Assembly (NCBI RefSeq): GCF_000264455.2
Contig: NC_017956.1
Location: forward strand, 789,501 to 853,500
Length of the DNA stretch: 64,000 nt
Direction of reading: 5' to 3'
Source of the DNA: Tistrella mobilis KA081020-065
Lineage (GTDB): Bacteria; Pseudomonadota; Alphaproteobacteria; Tistrellales; Tistrellaceae
Position 1 is the stretch's first letter, and each line of letters begins with the position of its first letter. A program made the position numbers and the translations under genes. The notes beneath the pieces were generated by a model that saw nothing but the letters and a program-made list of their open reading frames with translations, did not search any database and was not told the DNA's origin. Positions 50,014 through 57,040 of this stretch are shown piece after piece.

Positions 50014-50889
50014 TTAGATGGTGACGCGCCCTGATACGAGCCAGTCCGTCCCTGCCGGATCGAGCCGCTGCACGCCGATCGATGTGGTCCCGGTCAGAAT
50101 GCCTGGCCCCTGATCGATGACGGCCGCCTCAATCCGGCCCGTTCCCTGATGTTCCAGATCGAGCAGGGGGGCGGCGGCCGCGCCGCCGGTCGCCGGATCC
50201 TCGGCGATGCCGAGCCCTGCGGGGAAATGGCGGGCGCGGATGCAGAGGCAGCCGTTCTCCGCCTGACCGGCGAGGGCATAGAGGTAGAGGCCGGTGGCGC
50301 CGGTCCGTCCGGCCAGCCGGGCGACCGTGGCGGGATCGGGCACCGCCCGGCCCACCAGTGCCGGATCTTCCAGCCTGAGGACGAGCTTGGGCCGGGCGGC
50401 GCCGGCAAGCGCCGGCGGGAAGGCGTCGAGCCCCGCGCAGAGCCCGGTTGCGGCGGCGATATCGGCGCGGAGCGCTGCGCCGTCCGCGATCGGCCGGTGG
50501 TGATTGCCGGCAAGCCGGATCGCCGCCCCCGGCGGGCGATGATCGGCCGGCACCGGGCTGACCGTCTGCGGCCCGGCGGCGGTGGCGATGACCAGCGCCC
50601 GGTCACGCGCCTGCCCGTGCTGCCAGAGCCGGACCGCACCTGCCAGCAGCCCGTGCAGGCAGAGCGTGATCTCAGACGCCGGCAGGAAAAACCGCGCCCG
50701 CCAGCCGGTGTCCGGATCGGGCTGAAGCCAGGTGACTTCGGCGCCGTGTCGCTGGGCCAGCGCGCGTGCCCGGGCTTCGGTGCCGCCCAGCTGCACCAGG
50801 GCCGGGTTGCCGCCGCTGCCGTCGGCGCGGCAGAAGGCCATGGCCGGCCGTTCCGATGCCGGCCGTTCGGAGGTGGGGGCGGGCGTCAT
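50014..50889 (-). CDS. PhzF-family isomerase/epimerase-like protein
   Basis: 291 residues in the DapF/PhzF fold. Marks: MAFCRADGSGGNPALVQL at the start (family F.....GNPA.V), then ARFFLPASEITLCLHGLLAG where classical members have a catalytic Glu and E..LCGHAT, and GIAEDPATGGAAAAPLLDLE, matching EDP.TGSA. The Glu of ASEI is present; the H/T details are changed, so the substrate may be unusual. Last gene of a four-gene operon; its ATG overlaps the MFS stop (ATGA), tying it to that pathway. Confidence 0.85.
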   Translation of the reverse strand: MTPAPTSERPASERPAMAFCRADGSGGNPALVQLGGTEARARALAQRHGAEVTWLQPDPDTGWRARFFLPASEITLCLHGLLAGAVRLWQHGQARDRALVIATAAGPQTVSPVPADHRPPGAAIRLAGNHHRPIADGAALRADIAAATGLCAGLDAFPPALAGAARPKLVLRLEDPALVGRAVPDPATVARLAGRTGATGLYLYALAGQAENGCLCIRARHFPAGLGIAEDPATGGAAAAPLLDLEHQGTGRIEAAVIDQGPGILTGTTSIGVQRLDPAGTDWLVSGRVTI

Positions 50890-52145
50890 CTGCGCGCCGC
50901 CCGGCCGGGGACCGCGGCGCCCTCTACCCTGCGGGCGACATCGACCAGCAGCCAGCCGGCCAGCAGGCCGCCGGCCAGAAACAGCGCCGCCATCACCTGG
51001 GGCGGGACATGGCCGACCGCGGCGACACCAGCGGCCCCGGTCATCAGCGCCAGGCGGAAGCCCAGATTCATCACCGCCGCCGCCCGGCTGCGGCCGGCTT
51101 CGGGCGCGAGTGCGGCCATCAGCGCCAGCTTGGGCGGGGCATAGAGCAATTCGCCCACCGTGAACAGGGCGGTGAAGCCGATCAGCAGCCAGGCATCGGT
51201 CGACCAGCCCAGCACCCAGAACCCGGCGGCGAAGAGCGCGAAACCGATGGTGAGGCGGCCGGTATCCGACATGTTCCGCGCCAGGATCTGAACCAGCGGC
51301 GCCAGGGCCACCACCATCAGCCCGTTTTCGATCCGGAGCAGGCCGAACAGGCCCGGGCCGTCGAGCGCCAGATGCAGGCCCGACCAGTCGATCAGCTTGA
51401 TCGTTCCGGGCAGACTGCCCAGCCGCACCGCCACGTAATGGGCGAGCTGGGCCGCCACCGCCAGCGAGAGCGCCACGCCTGCGGCATAGCGCAGGAACAG
51501 CCGGTCGCGCAGCACCTCGGCATAACCGGCCAGCATCTCGGCCGGTCGGAAGGGGGCCGGCCGCTCCACCGGCCGGGTTTCGACCAGGGCGAGCGCCAGC
51601 GCGAGCGTCACGGCCGCCGCGAGCCCGGCGATGCCGGCGAGCAGCCAGCCGAACCACAAGCCATAGGCGGCCGCCCCGGCCAGCGTCCCGCTGGCGCGCG
51701 CGACATTGGTCACCCAGTAGACCGCGCCATAGATCTGCCGCCGCCGTTCGGGCGTTGCGAGGTCGATCACCGTCGCCTCGGCGGTGGGGGTGGAGATGCC
51801 GGCGGCGATGGCGAGGGCGAGGAAAGGCAGGGCGGCGATCCAGGCGGCGAGCACCGGGTCGGCGGCGCGGGTTTCGGGCAGCACCGCGAGTGCGAGTGCG
51901 GCGGCAGCCAGCGCCCGGCCGGCTTCGGCCGGTACCAGCACCCGGCGCCGGCCGCGGGTATCGGCCAGATGTCCGGCCCAGATGCCCGCCACCGTCGCGC
52001 CCGCGAAGGCCGCGAAGATCAGCAGCCCGGCCGTGCCGGTGCCGAGGCGTTCGGCGAACAGCAGCGCCATGAAGGGGAAGATGGCGGCCTCGGCGAATTT
52101 TTCGAGGAAGAGCACCGCCAGGCGGAGCCGGATCACCCGTTCCAT
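50886..52145 (-). CDS. MFS transporter of the ATP-grasp/C45 operon
   Basis: 419 residues, about 12 helices. N-terminal LRLAVLFLEKFAEAAIFPFM, GIWAGHLADTRGRRRVLVPA (loop 2-3 motif), TPTAEATVIDLATPERRRQI, and in the second half RLTIGFALFAAGFWVLGWST. Resembles drug/metabolite efflux MFS proteins. Its start lies inside the end of the C45 gene (13-base overlap), so they are co-translated; it probably exports the product made by the two upstream enzymes (inference). Confidence 0.88.
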   Translation of the reverse strand: MERVIRLRLAVLFLEKFAEAAIFPFMALLFAERLGTGTAGLLIFAAFAGATVAGIWAGHLADTRGRRRVLVPAEAGRALAAAALALAVLPETRAADPVLAAWIAALPFLALAIAAGISTPTAEATVIDLATPERRRQIYGAVYWVTNVARASGTLAGAAAYGLWFGWLLAGIAGLAAAVTLALALALVETRPVERPAPFRPAEMLAGYAEVLRDRLFLRYAAGVALSLAVAAQLAHYVAVRLGSLPGTIKLIDWSGLHLALDGPGLFGLLRIENGLMVVALAPLVQILARNMSDTGRLTIGFALFAAGFWVLGWSTDAWLLIGFTALFTVGELLYAPPKLALMAALAPEAGRSRAAAVMNLGFRLALMTGAAGVAAVGHVPPQVMAALFLAGGLLAGWLLVDVARRVEGAAVPGRAARR

Positions 52146-53314
52146 GACGCGTCCTCCAGCCGCCAGGTGGTGAAGGGGGTATCGCAGGCGGTGCCGAGGG
52201 CGACATCCATCCGCCGGGCGGCCGGGTCCAGGATCACACTCGCAACCGTGCGGCCCAGCCGCGGGCTGTTGCGGCCATGGGCGCAGATCGACAACGGCGC
52301 ATTGGCATGGTCGGCGAGCACGGCCCGTGCATCTCCGGCTCCGGCAGCACCCTCCGCCCAAGGGCTTTCGGCGAAGATCTCGTCCAGCCGCGCCGTCCGC
52401 AGACGGGTGGACGACCAGGCCGGCACCCGGTCGAGCGGCGCCAGATCGGGATGCAGGTAATGATTGCAATGGGTAAGCCGCGCCTGGGGCAGGCCCGGAC
52501 CGGGATCGAGCCGCCGGCAGCTGTCGATGGTGGTCTCGATCATCCGGTGGCCGGTGCCGTCGGCCAGGGTGTAGCAGCGCGAGGTGGCGCGCGGCAGGCG
52601 GGCGATGGCGGCTTCGGCCGCATCGGCATCGGCCAGGCCCAGCAGATGACGGACGATCAGATAGGGCGGCGGTGCCACCTGCCAGCCGGGGGCGACCACC
52701 ATGTTGATGCCGATGGCGAGCCCGGCCCGGTTGAGGCCGAGGAAGCCCAGCTGGCCGAGCGGCGCCCAGGCCAGCGACCGCCCGCCCGGCCCGTCGCCAT
52801 CCAGGTCGAGCACGGTGCCGAGCCCGTCCATATCGCCCGGCAGATCGGCGGTCTGGGCGATCAGCGAGCGGCCGTCCGCGCCGGTGAAAGCAAGCGTGGT
52901 GCAGCCTTCGAGCCCGCCCGACCGGTCTTCGGGCTGTGCGGCCCCTGCAACCACCGGCCCGGTGCCGGGGGCGGCAAGCTCGCGCCTCAACTGCAGGATC
53001 AGCGCATCGGCAAGCGGGATACCGGCGCCCTCGGCCAGGCCCTCGATCTCTGCCATCACCTCGGGCAGCAGATCGGCGATCGGGGCTGCGAAGGTGAGCG
53101 CCAGCCGTCGCGCGGCCTCGCGGCCCAGCGGTTCCGGCCGCAGCCGGTCCAGATGGGCGACGTCCTCGTCCAGAAAAGCGCGGATCGCCGGGCCGAGGGC
53201 CTGGCCGATGCTGCGGCCCCGCGCCCGCGCCGGCCCCCGGGCGCGGATCGGCCAGGCCAGGCCCGAAAGCAGCTCTGCCGCGGTCGCGCGGCGGGTGGGC
53301 TGAACCAGGCTCAT
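52133..53314 (-). CDS. C45-family Ntn acyltransferase/hydrolase
   Basis: 393 residues. Similar to the penicillin acyl-CoA:6-APA acyltransferase group: an N-terminal helical part (to about residue 137), then EGCTTLAFTGADGRSLIAQT. Here Cys138 after Gly would be freed by self-cleavage as the N-terminal nucleophile. Later GLNRAGLAIGINMV, SRCYTLADGTGHRMIET and LTHCNHYLHPDLAPLD fit the family core. Members transfer or hydrolyse acyl groups on peptides or beta-lactams. It overlaps the ATP-grasp gene by 4 bases. Substrate unknown. Confidence 0.87.
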   Translation of the reverse strand: MSLVQPTRRATAAELLSGLAWPIRARGPARARGRSIGQALGPAIRAFLDEDVAHLDRLRPEPLGREAARRLALTFAAPIADLLPEVMAEIEGLAEGAGIPLADALILQLRRELAAPGTGPVVAGAAQPEDRSGGLEGCTTLAFTGADGRSLIAQTADLPGDMDGLGTVLDLDGDGPGGRSLAWAPLGQLGFLGLNRAGLAIGINMVVAPGWQVAPPPYLIVRHLLGLADADAAEAAIARLPRATSRCYTLADGTGHRMIETTIDSCRRLDPGPGLPQARLTHCNHYLHPDLAPLDRVPAWSSTRLRTARLDEIFAESPWAEGAAGAGDARAVLADHANAPLSICAHGRNSPRLGRTVASVILDPAARRMDVALGTACDTPFTTWRLEDASWNG

Positions 53315-54285
53315 GCCGCCTGCCTCCGCCTGAGGCCGTCGCCGGCCAGGCGGATCAGGCTCTGGGCCAGCAGGTCGACCGCCTGACGTGCCAGCGGCTC
53401 CAGTACCGGGCGGTTCGGCCCGGCAAGGGTCGCGGCGGTGTAGATGCCGGGCGTCATGTTGACCTCCAGGATCACCGGGCCGCGGCCCGGCACCTCGATC
53501 AGGTCGACACCGGCGAGCGGCGCATCGACCGCACGCGCCGCCGCCGTGGCAAGGCGGGCGAGGGCGGGCGGGATGCTGGTCAGCGCTTCGGCCCTGCCGC
53601 CGGCATGCAGATTGGCGACGAAGGCCCCCGGGGCGGCGTGGCGGCGGAAGGCATAGACCGGCCGGTGATCGACGCATTGAATGCGCAGATCGCTGCCGTC
53701 ATTGGGCAGGAATTCCTGAAGATAGAGCGGCAGCCGCGCGGCCCCGGCCTCGGCCAGACGGGCGATCAGCTCGGCGCGGTGGCCGAGCGGGCCGACCCCG
53801 CCGCCCTTGGTGCCCAGGCAGGGTTTCACCACCATCGGCAGGCCAAGCCCGGCGATCAGCACGTCGGGATCGGCATCGGCGCCCGCGATCAGGGTGCGGG
53901 CATGGGGCAGGCCGGCGGCGGCGAGGCGGAGCGACAGGGTGGGCTTCAACTGGCCGGGATCGAGCACGGCCGCCCGGTTCATCACCGGCACCCCGGCCAT
54001 TTCCAGCGCCTTGAGCAGCCAGAGCCCGGCATCGCGTGCGGCAAGCGATGTCCAGCCCAGGCAGGCATCGGGGGTGAGCGGGCTGCCATCCGCCTCGAGG
54101 ATCACCGGCCGCCGGCCGTCGATGCGGATGGTGAGGGCTTCCGGGCGGCGGATGATCGGGCGGGCGCCGCGTGCCCGCAATGCGCCGTCGATGGCAGTGA
54201 CGTCGGCCGTGGTCTCGCGCGCCAGGACCAGCACGGCCGGGCGCGGGCGACTGCCGGCGCCGGAGTGCGGAGCGGGGGAGGGCAT
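53311..54285 (-). CDS. ATP-grasp ligase (RimK-like)
   Basis: 324 residues. The ATP-grasp core is visible: PMVVKPCLGTKGGGVGPLGH (ATP lid with Lys and Gly-rich loop), LYLQEFLPNDGSDLRIQCVD, AFRRHAAPGAFVANLHAGGR, and the metal site GVDLIEVPGRGPVILEVNMT (Glu and Asn). The N-terminal domain is RimK/LysX-like. It would join a carboxylate to an amine, making an amide or peptide bond. First gene of the operon; GGAGAG stands 8 bases before the ATG and a good promoter lies just upstream. Confidence 0.88.
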   Translation of the reverse strand: MPSPAPHSGAGSRPRPAVLVLARETTADVTAIDGALRARGARPIIRRPEALTIRIDGRRPVILEADGSPLTPDACLGWTSLAARDAGLWLLKALEMAGVPVMNRAAVLDPGQLKPTLSLRLAAAGLPHARTLIAGADADPDVLIAGLGLPMVVKPCLGTKGGGVGPLGHRAELIARLAEAGAARLPLYLQEFLPNDGSDLRIQCVDHRPVYAFRRHAAPGAFVANLHAGGRAEALTSIPPALARLATAAARAVDAPLAGVDLIEVPGRGPVILEVNMTPGIYTAATLAGPNRPVLEPLARQAVDLLAQSLIRLAGDGLRRRQAA

Positions 54286-54317
54286 CGCCGATCTCTCCGT
54301 GGTTGAGTGACCGGCGA

Positions 54318-54347
54318 TTTATACGCCCTTAACTATGACGGGATCAA
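54318..54347 (-). promoter_or_regulatory. Promoter of the ATP-grasp/C45/MFS/PhzF operon
   Basis: On the minus strand TTGATC (54342-54347), an 18-base spacer and TATAAA (54318-54323) give a good sigma-70-type promoter, 33 bases before the ATP-grasp start. The -35 box overlaps the stop codon of the upstream MATE gene. Confidence 0.6.
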
Positions 54348-55810
54348 GCGACCTCGGGAAGTGCGCCGGGCGCGGGCGGGGTCCGCATCCCGGCGGCACC
54401 GGCGGGGACGAGCCCCAGCCGGTGCCGCCGGGTCCAGCGCGTCAGCATCAGCACCGCCACGGTGGCGAGGCCTGAGGCCAGGCCGATCCAGAGCCCGGTG
54501 CCGCCCATGTCCAGCCCGAAGGCGAGGCCAGAGCCCACCCCCAGCCCAACGCCCCAATAGCCGAGGCCGGCATAGATCATGGGAACGGCGGTGTCCTTGA
54601 GCCCGCGGAGCAGGCCCGCCCCCACCGCCTGGGCGCCGTCGGCCAGCTGGAAGATGGCCGCGATGCCCAGGAAGCCGACCGCGATCGCCGTGGTCTCGGC
54701 CACCGCCGGATCGTTGCCGTCCAGGAAGAAGCCGATCAGCGTGCGGGGCATGGTCAGCATCACGATGGCCGAGAGCGCCATGAAGCCGATGCCGAGCAGG
54801 ATGGCGGCACGGCCCGCTTCGCGGATCCGTCCGGCATCGCCCCGGCCGGCGGCGATGCCGACCCGCACGGTGCCCGCCTGGGCCACCCCCATCGGCACCA
54901 TGAAGGTGACGGCGGCCAGCTGCAGCGCGATGGCGTGGGCGGCGAGCTGGTTGGTGCCGATCAGCCCCATCAGGAAGGCGGCGGCGTTGAAGACGGTTAC
55001 CTCGAAGCCCATGGTCAGGCTGATCGGCAGACCGATCTTCAGCATCTCGCGAAGCCGCGGCCAGTCCGTCCGCCACCAGCGGCCATAGAGCGCGAAGCGG
55101 TTGAAGCGGCGGTCGGCCAGGGTGACCAGCGCCAGCGCGCCGAACAGGAAGATGTTGGCGAGCGTGCTGGCGATGCCGGCTCCCTCCAGCCCCAGCGCCG
55201 GCAGGCCGAAATGCCCCAGCACCAGGCCCAGATCGAGCACGGCGTTGACCGCGACCGCCGCGATGGTGATCACCATCGCAGGCCGCGGCCGGCCGAGGGC
55301 CGAGATGAAGTTGCGGAGCACCACGAACCACAGCGCCGGCAGGATGCCCCAGCGCAGCGTGTCGACATAGACCGCGGCGGCGGCGGCCAGATCGGGCGCC
55401 TGGCCCATGGCCCGCAGGATGGTCTCCGTCTGGCCCAGCACCAGGATCCAGGCGGTCGAGACGGCAAGGCAGAGCCACAGCCCCTGACGCACGGTGCGCC
55501 TGAGATCGCGGACCATGCCCAGCCTGGCGCCCACCGCCTGGGCGAGCATCGGGGCGGTGGCCATGGCAAGGCCCATACCGTAGATGAACAGCGCGAAATA
55601 GAGATTGGCGCCGAGGGTGGCGGCTGCCAGTGCCTCGGGGCCCAGCCGGCCGATCACCAGCACGTCCGTGGTGGTGATCGCCATCTGGGCGAGGTTGGTC
55701 AGCACGATTGGCCAGGCGAGGGCGAAGGTCGCCCTTACCTCGCGCATGAACGGGGCCTCGCGCACGAACGGGGTCTGTGCGCCGGCCGCGGGGGGAGCGA
55801 TGCCGGTCAT
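54344..55810 (-). CDS. MATE-family efflux transporter (NorM-like)
   Basis: 488 residues from the ATG at 55808-55810, 12 helices. Family stretches: ATFALAWPIVLTNLAQMAIT, TDVLVIGRLGPEALAAATLG, ALFIYGMGLAMATAPMLAQA, and in the second half IALQLAAVTFMVPMGVAQAG and GIAAIFQLADGAQAVGAGLL. It exports cationic or aromatic compounds with Na+ or H+. The frame is open further upstream (starts at 55918, 55924 and 55984 possible), but those residues are Pro/Ala-rich and unlike the family. Confidence 0.9.
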   Translation of the reverse strand: MTGIAPPAAGAQTPFVREAPFMREVRATFALAWPIVLTNLAQMAITTTDVLVIGRLGPEALAAATLGANLYFALFIYGMGLAMATAPMLAQAVGARLGMVRDLRRTVRQGLWLCLAVSTAWILVLGQTETILRAMGQAPDLAAAAAVYVDTLRWGILPALWFVVLRNFISALGRPRPAMVITIAAVAVNAVLDLGLVLGHFGLPALGLEGAGIASTLANIFLFGALALVTLADRRFNRFALYGRWWRTDWPRLREMLKIGLPISLTMGFEVTVFNAAAFLMGLIGTNQLAAHAIALQLAAVTFMVPMGVAQAGTVRVGIAAGRGDAGRIREAGRAAILLGIGFMALSAIVMLTMPRTLIGFFLDGNDPAVAETTAIAVGFLGIAAIFQLADGAQAVGAGLLRGLKDTAVPMIYAGLGYWGVGLGVGSGLAFGLDMGGTGLWIGLASGLATVAVLMLTRWTRRHRLGLVPAGAAGMRTPPAPGALPEVA

Positions 55811-56068
55811 GATCTCTGGTGCCGAAATGGTGAATGCGCGCACGGAATCCGGCGACGGCGGCTGGCTGACCGGCGGGGGGCCTTGCACCTGCCCCGGAAG
55901 GGGGATGCGGCCTGCCATGGTCATGGCCGTCTGACGGTCCGAGGATGGCGGGGCTGCGATGGCAGCCTGGGCTGTTGTCGCCATCCGGCGCCCGAGCCGT
56001 ACAGAATACGCGCAGATCGTGACGTGACACCCGCGCGGGAATTGCGGGTCTGGCTCGCAGGATTCGCA

Positions 56069-56101
56069 TGGTATACCAATATCCGGCATAATGGTATACC
56101 A
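56069..56101. promoter_or_regulatory. Twin TGGTATACCA palindromes
   Basis: Identical 10-bp palindromes at 56069-56078 and 56092-56101, centres 23 bases apart, followed by AAT in each. The form t.GTa.tAC.a is that of GntR/FadR-type operators. They lie between the divergent MATE and DMT genes, 36 bases before the DMT start. No GntR gene is in the window. Confidence 0.75.
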
Positions 56102-56137
56102 ATGCCCATAACAACCGGATGAGGGCGGGGCAAGGGC

Positions 56138-57040
56138 ATGGTCGAAACCTGGGTGGTGGTCACGGCGGCCGCGGCCGCGCTGCAGGCGTCGCGCACGGCG
56201 CTTCAGCAGCGGCTGCGCGGGCTGCTGAGCGTTCAGGGCGCAGGTTTCGTGCGCTATGCCTATGGGGCGCCGGTGTCGCTGGCGGCGCTGGCGGTCGTTG
56301 CTGCCTCTCCCGCCGGTGTGCCGGATCTGACGCTCGCCCATGCCGGCTGGTGCGCGCTGGCCGGCATCGCCCAGATCCTGGGGACCAATCTGCTGATCAT
56401 GTCCTTCGGTGCCCGCGGCTTCGCGGTGGGCACGGTCTATTCCAAGGCGGAGACCGTGATCGTGGCCCTGGTCGGTTGGGCGGTGCTGGGAGAGGCCCTG
56501 GCTGCAACGGCCTGGGCCGGCATTCTGGTGTGTATGGCCGGCGTGGTGGCGCTGGCCACCCGCGGCAACCGCGAAGGACTGAAGGCTCTGGCGCGCGGCG
56601 CCGGCGACCGGGCGGCGCTTTACGGGCTGGGGGCCGGGGCGATGTTCGCCGTCGCCTCGGTCTGCATCCGGGCGGGTGCGCTGGAGCTGGGGCAGGGCGA
56701 CGCCTTTCCGCGGGCGATCGCGACGCTGGCGGTGATGAACTCCATCCAGGCGGTGCTGATGGGCGTCTGGCTGCTGGCCCGCGAGCCCGCAACCTTCACT
56801 GCCGTGTTCCGCACCTGGCGCAGTTCCTCGCTGGTGGGCCTGCTCAGCGTCACCGGCTCGGCCGGCTGGGCCTGGGCCATGACGCTGGAGACCGCGGCGC
56901 TGGTGCGCGCCTTCGGCCAGGTGGAACTGGTCTTCACCGTGATCATGGGCCGGCTGCTGCTGGGCGAGACGCCCAAGGCCGCCGACATCCCCGGAAGCCT
57001 GGCGGTGATCCTGGGTGTGCTGCTGGTGCTGCTCGCCTGA
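56138..57040 (+). CDS. DMT-superfamily membrane transporter
   Basis: 300 residues, about ten helices, two EamA-like halves. QASRTALQQRLRGLLSVQGA at the start, GIAQILGTNLLIMSFGARGF, SKAETVIVALVGWAVLGEAL closing repeat one, and VRAFGQVELVFTVIMGRLLL plus GETPKAADIPGSLAVILGVL closing repeat two. The paired 'E...(V/L)..GE' pattern is characteristic. Cargo unknown. It follows the twin palindromes; the DUF6065-like gene starts 20 bases after it. Confidence 0.86.
   Translation: MVETWVVVTAAAAALQASRTALQQRLRGLLSVQGAGFVRYAYGAPVSLAALAVVAASPAGVPDLTLAHAGWCALAGIAQILGTNLLIMSFGARGFAVGTVYSKAETVIVALVGWAVLGEALAATAWAGILVCMAGVVALATRGNREGLKALARGAGDRAALYGLGAGAMFAVASVCIRAGALELGQGDAFPRAIATLAVMNSIQAVLMGVWLLAREPATFTAVFRTWRSSSLVGLLSVTGSAGWAWAMTLETAALVRAFGQVELVFTVIMGRLLLGETPKAADIPGSLAVILGVLLVLLA

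Follow-up and report, generated by a model that had tools for sequence, protein, structure and literature searches.

A conserved four-gene operon of Tistrella mobilis with a RimK-type ATP-grasp ligase, a C45-family enzyme, an MFS transporter and a PhzF-fold protein: a candidate minimal biosynthetic pathway

Natural-product clusters that combine ATP-grasp enzymes with MFS exporters and dispense with NRPS modules are already known. Enzymes of the C45 family occur in the azaserine/triacsin-type clusters that direct the formation of N-N bonds, where in vitro AzsT hydrolyses the N-succinyl group of a carrier-bound azaserine intermediate, and where Tri14 brings about the release of the triacsin product (PMC10445470). 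Among ATP-grasp ligases related to RimK, the choice of substrate by LysX and ArgX is reported to be set by a five-residue signature motif (PMC10433800). A literature search of open-licence papers returned no description of clusters in which an ATP-grasp gene is found with a C45 gene, or with a PhzF gene. This article examines an operon in a 64,000-nucleotide stretch of DNA (hereafter the window) from the alphaproteobacterium T. mobilis, which has a 6.5 Mb genome in five contigs. The operon brings together a RimK-type ligase, a C45 enzyme and a PhzF-family protein, and this combination is its new element.

Layout and conservation of the operon

The four genes lie on the minus strand and encode, in the order of transcription, a RimK/LysX-type ATP-grasp ligase of 324 aa (53311..54285), a C45 family autoproteolytic acyltransferase/hydrolase of 393 aa (52133..53314), an MFS transporter of 419 aa (50886..52145), and a short PhzF-family protein of 291 aa (50014..50889). 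Successive genes overlap by 4 bp (ATP-grasp/C45), 13 bp (C45/MFS), and 4 bp (MFS/PhzF), as the original prediction of four overlapping genes in one direction had it, and its four family calls also stand, each protein exceeding the curated cut-off of its Pfam family and all four families being assigned above curated cut-offs by Pfam and NCBIfam profiles together. The reading frames can be regarded as real because GC3 is 84-89% in each of them and because dN/dS, calculated against two congeneric orthologues, falls between 0.07 and 0.29 (ligase, 0.12-0.29; C45, 0.14-0.20; MFS, 0.07-0.09; PhzF, 0.15-0.27). All four genes are maintained by purifying selection.

The operon had been credited with one good promoter, a description that holds in part. 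Direct reading reveals a promoter-like element, TTGATC-18 bp-TATAAA (54318..54347, minus strand), which is conserved in the two congeneric loci (L059 and L063), and a GGAGAG ribosome site before the ATP-grasp gene is likewise kept in all three genomes. Against this, the element at 54347-54318 is not listed by a scan for strict consensus promoters because its -10 hexamer lacks the last T. Upstream of the operon, with 58 bp between its end and the first gene, lies a MATE-family transporter gene (54344-56341, minus strand), and its stop codon at 54344 is overlapped by the operon's -35 hexamer; read-through from the MATE gene is therefore possible. The neighbours of the operon in the window are this gene and MCP and EamA genes.

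The whole operon is present in three congeneric genomes (its own, a second of the same species, and one of another species), in each of which it is flanked by the same neighbours within the same syntenic block. Because the flanks are syntenic too, linkage of the four genes within the genus is not independent evidence of joint function. The idea that the four homologues would also be neighbours in other genomes did not survive beyond the genus in the genomes searched, where only the MFS/ATP-grasp association recurs. No complete operon was found outside the genus among approximately 290 Alphaproteobacteria, 400 Pseudomonadota, and 250-300 Actinomycetota, an absence that is provisional in that these genome sets are samples, and no C45/PhzF pairing was found outside the genus in these samples either. 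A neighbourhood search for the predicted ATP-grasp/C45 pair likewise gave no convincing case outside the genus in the sampled genomes. One genome (G041) carries an ATP-grasp and a C45 gene 3-4 kb apart, which was rejected as coincidence, the two being on opposite strands and distant from the window proteins (29% and 25% identity).

Single genes of the operon are also poorly matched elsewhere in the samples. The best match of the ATP-grasp ligase outside the genus reaches at most 36% identity over part of the protein in 289 sampled Alphaproteobacteria, and 32-33% in 398 Pseudomonadota and 246 Actinomycetota; the neighbourhoods of the best matches yielded no C45, MFS or PhzF relatives. The C45 enzyme has no match at E < 1e-20 beyond its own genome in 398 Pseudomonadota, and its best match in 296 Actinomycetota shows 40% identity over the aligned part. 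No close relative of the MFS transporter was found in 150 Pseudomonadota, or in 149 Actinomycetota in a search run without a positive control.

The four proteins and their relatives

The ligase matches RimK (PF08443) at 63 bits, and its Pfam matches are limited to RimK and GSH-S_ATP, without the ATP-grasp_4 and LAL_C2 domains of L-amino-acid ligases (PF18603/PF13535). It scores 112.8 bits against TIGR00768 (RimK family alpha-L-glutamate ligase), below the cut-off of 143.4, and is also below the cut-offs of MptN, LysX, RimK and all other equivalogs. Its nearest solved structures by both sequence and fold are RimK, LysX, and ArgX, and its AF2 model matches RimK (5zct), at a global superposition rmsd of ~16 Angstrom that makes the domain arrangement of the model unreadable in detail. 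The protein shares with RimK, LysX and ArgX the fold and the residues that bind ATP and Mg, including invariant Mg ligands E274/N276 and invariant K114/K154, but its gene is not linked to rpsF or lysW, it is only 24-29% identical over the alignment to RimK-type proteins of other genomes, and the FRSN.HRGG and SPGLEG motifs that are constant in RimK-type relatives are replaced by FVAN.HAGG and TPGIYT. Because these motifs are altered, and because a signature motif is reported to set the substrate of LysX and ArgX (PMC10433800), the amine acceptor has probably changed from the usual RimK substrate.

The C45 enzyme matches AAT (PF03417) at 43 bits and the NCBIfam C45_proenzyme profile (NF040521) at 176 bits against a cut-off of 85. 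The self-processing cysteine on which the original prediction depended is present: in an alignment of 30 rows, the nucleophile Cys138 is invariant and preceded by Gly137, Asn284 and His285 are also invariant, and Asp157 is nearly so. The AF2 model (pLDDT 84), built without the plasmid-record rows, matches the fungal isopenicillin N acyltransferase 2x1c with TM 0.78/0.86, and the two proteins share the GCTT nucleophile region and the N-H and S-I-C motifs, but they are only ~20% identical and the closer characterized relatives of the window enzyme are hydrolases. A beta-lactam-type acyltransferase pathway was rejected, isopenicillin N synthase and NRPS genes being absent nearby.

Those closer relatives, at 31-38% identity, are encoded in azaserine/triacsin-type N-N-bond clusters. 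In a tree of 30 sequences the window enzyme groups with C45 enzymes of such clusters with support of 100/99, the tree having long branches and a midpoint root and containing neither AzsT nor Tri14 themselves. In the loci of these relatives the C45 gene follows genes for a GNAT and an AMP ligase, usually one for a carrier protein, and in the majority of loci a class I tRNA-ligase-type gene, and it is this matching gene set that links the relatives to AzsT and Tri14. The catalytic Cys and an A-Q-T-x-D motif are common to the window enzyme and the cluster enzymes. The gene contexts differ: the hydrazinoacetate genes that would mark AzsT/Tri14-type linkage (cupin-MetRS, AMP ligase, carrier protein, and GNAT) were looked for in the operon and none was found, an N-hydroxylase is also lacking, and the cluster homologues inspected are without ATP-grasp and PhzF genes. 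Because AzsT and Tri14, the nearest characterized cluster relatives, are hydrolases, hydrolysis is the better prior, and a hydrolase or deacylase role appears more likely than that of a peptide acyltransferase. The suggestion that the enzyme moves acyl groups on peptides or beta-lactam nuclei is thus not favoured, despite its penicillin acyltransferase fold.

Other C45 genes were encountered in the course of this work. One member of the N-N-bond-cluster clade (G838; L087, G838:C36:28500-46623) has nearby two adenylosuccinate-lyase-like genes and one that resembles glutamine synthetase, and may belong to a different N-N-bond or amide pathway. Two further paralogues on other replicons of the T. 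mobilis genome (L015 and L019; G000:C2:378852-379838 and G000:C3:45434-46546) represent a different C45 branch, with a QNWD motif.

The MFS protein (MFS_1, PF07690, 69.5 bits) is a probable exporter, judging from its family and the company of its relatives. Its nearest relatives in a plasmid collection, 26-38% identical over most of their length, are clearly biased toward ATP-grasp neighbours: an annotated ATP-grasp gene lies within 4-7 kb in five of the nine loci inspected (Bacillus arachidis, Streptomyces NBC_01383, Peribacillus, Streptomyces NBC_00239, and Priestia), in a sample that is small and includes related Streptomyces loci, and for which incomplete gene tables can only lower the counts. 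A control MFS transporter from the same genome had an ATP-grasp neighbour in 0/5 loci. Three of the remaining loci are asnB/cysteine-synthase/dioxygenase clusters, and a Deinococcus locus is of neither kind. The six ATP-grasp proteins from the five loci all contain the ATP-grasp_4 domain and four of them pass the LAL_C2 cut-off, with the Peribacillus protein just under it (27.5 vs 29.4 bits) and the Priestia protein having ATP-grasp_4 only. The operon thus resembles L-amino-acid-ligase (BacD/DdaF-like) dipeptide clusters in that a relative of its transporter adjoins an ATP-grasp ligase there, but those clusters have no C45 gene, and their ligases are ATP-grasp_4 proteins of ~410 aa, most with LAL_C2, whereas the window ligase is RimK-type and 324 aa long.

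Two of the gene sets around these transporters merit mention in their own right. A cluster recurring on Streptomyces plasmids (L065, from Streptomyces sp. NBC_01383, and L067, L092, L093, and L096) combines MFS, asnB, cysteine synthase, aldolase/citrate lyase and usually TauD oxygenase genes, to which some members add L-amino-acid ligases and a PrpF-domain protein, and looks like an amino-acid-derived natural-product cluster. On a Bacillus arachidis plasmid (L064, 1-9333), the run of genes with the MFS relative encodes an L-amino-acid ligase, GTP cyclohydrolase II, a RibD-like protein, and formylglycine-generating-like and PLP enzymes, an unusual union of a riboflavin-like set with a ligase.

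The PhzF-family protein scores 60.2 bits against PF02567 (PhzC-PhzF; cut-off 27) and 52.8 bits against the phenazine-type isomerase subfamily TIGR00654, below the cut-off of 76.2. In alignment with PhzF paralogues its N-terminus is divergent, while the GGNP region, an EDPATG motif and a Glu that aligns with the catalytic-type Glu of the paralogues' N-L-S-E-T are kept. It evolves fastest of the four proteins, at 80% identity between species. Matches in the PDB to Pizza propeller designs were discarded as composition artefacts. All three enzymes of the operon retain residues of catalytic type.

A candidate pathway and its alternatives

The best explanation, to which a probability of about 0.55 is given, is that the four genes form a minimal biosynthetic pathway whose product, a small metabolite resembling an amino acid or a dipeptide, is exported. 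In such a pathway, the ATP-grasp ligase would activate a carboxylate by forming an acyl phosphate and couple it with an amine acceptor that differs from the usual RimK substrate, and the PhzF-fold protein would isomerize a small intermediate. The C45 enzyme would cleave itself before Cys138 and then act on an acyl (or aminoacyl) group by cleavage or transfer; its likeliest role is that of a hydrolase taking off an acyl group that had been attached temporarily, in the manner of AzsT in the azaserine pathway. The MFS transporter would export the product, as do the exporters that accompany L-amino-acid-ligase pathways. We infer a single pathway in which the four proteins act on one molecule, and with it the order of the steps, the deacylase role of the C45 enzyme, and the class of compound to which the product belongs.

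A biosynthetic role is favoured by two independent signals of context, those of the C45 relatives and of the MFS relatives. The joint pathway with an exporter that was originally proposed is supported by these contexts and by the overlap of the genes, their conservation in three genomes, and the retained catalytic residues; it is weakened in that the MFS relatives are paired with another ATP-grasp subfamily, mostly L-amino-acid ligases. An acylated or cyclized small peptide is a possible product, but the details of that proposal lack support, and no evidence of cyclization was found. Also weighing against a pathway are the distant relationship of the window C45 enzyme to those of the clusters and the small number of genes, as a route that begins in primary metabolism may need more than four.

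One special form of the biosynthetic reading, attractive but improbable and overlapping with it in such a way that their probabilities are not additive to one, is that the ligase adds an aminoacyl or acyl protecting group to an intermediate resembling an amino acid, the PhzF protein isomerizes the protected intermediate, and the C45 enzyme removes the group before export. Butirosin biosynthesis, which uses gamma-glutamyl protection, follows a similar logic. The nearest kin of the C45 enzyme are encoded directly after a GNAT, and in the azaserine pathway a GNAT adds the succinyl group that AzsT removes (PMC10445470); the ligase and C45 genes adjoin in the operon, and RimK-type enzymes add amino acids onto carboxylates. 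However, the carboxylate that RimK-type enzymes activate is normally the one on the larger partner, and the scheme has to assume that the product of the ligase is the substrate of the C45 enzyme.

Less probable is a self-protection or detoxification operon, whose enzymes would cleave or otherwise alter a small toxic compound to be expelled by the MFS transporter and the upstream MATE protein. The MATE gene does end 58 bp upstream on the same strand, and enzymes with the C45 and penicillin-V-acylase folds, the latter being fold neighbours of C45, can cleave amide antibiotics. Yet the operon contains no regulator, the relatives of its C45 and MFS proteins occur in biosynthetic clusters rather than resistance loci, and a resistance cassette should show more mobility than a syntenic locus limited to one genus.

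It is more doubtful still that housekeeping or catabolic enzymes without a common function have come to overlap by chance in a compact genome. Conservation in one genus only, with conserved flanks, and the failure to find the set in any other genome searched are compatible with chance, but three successive overlapping stop/start junctions behind one conserved promoter-like element, a ligase far removed from the RimK-type proteins of other genomes (24-29% identity), and the independent bias of the MFS and C45 relatives toward amino-acid-type biosynthetic clusters argue against it. A graspetide cluster was dismissed, as the overlapping genes leave no room for a precursor peptide and Foldseek places RimK/ArgX above PsnB, as was anti-phage defence, for which PADLOC gave no match.

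Significance of the operon

If the biosynthetic reading is correct, a four-gene pathway without NRPS modules would join the known ATP-grasp natural-product clusters, and a RimK-type ligase would have been recruited into secondary metabolism alongside a C45 enzyme. A more specific proposal, which is speculative and rather unlikely, is that the RimK-derived ligase and the C45 enzyme form a pair that adds and removes an acyl group around the PhzF isomerization, free of NRPS machinery, so that the genus makes and exports a new molecule, either an amino-acid antimetabolite or one resembling a siderophore. The bacterial group that carries the operon is likely to contain a producer of the didemnins, which are anticancer compounds, and the operon would offer a concrete and small target for heterologous expression.
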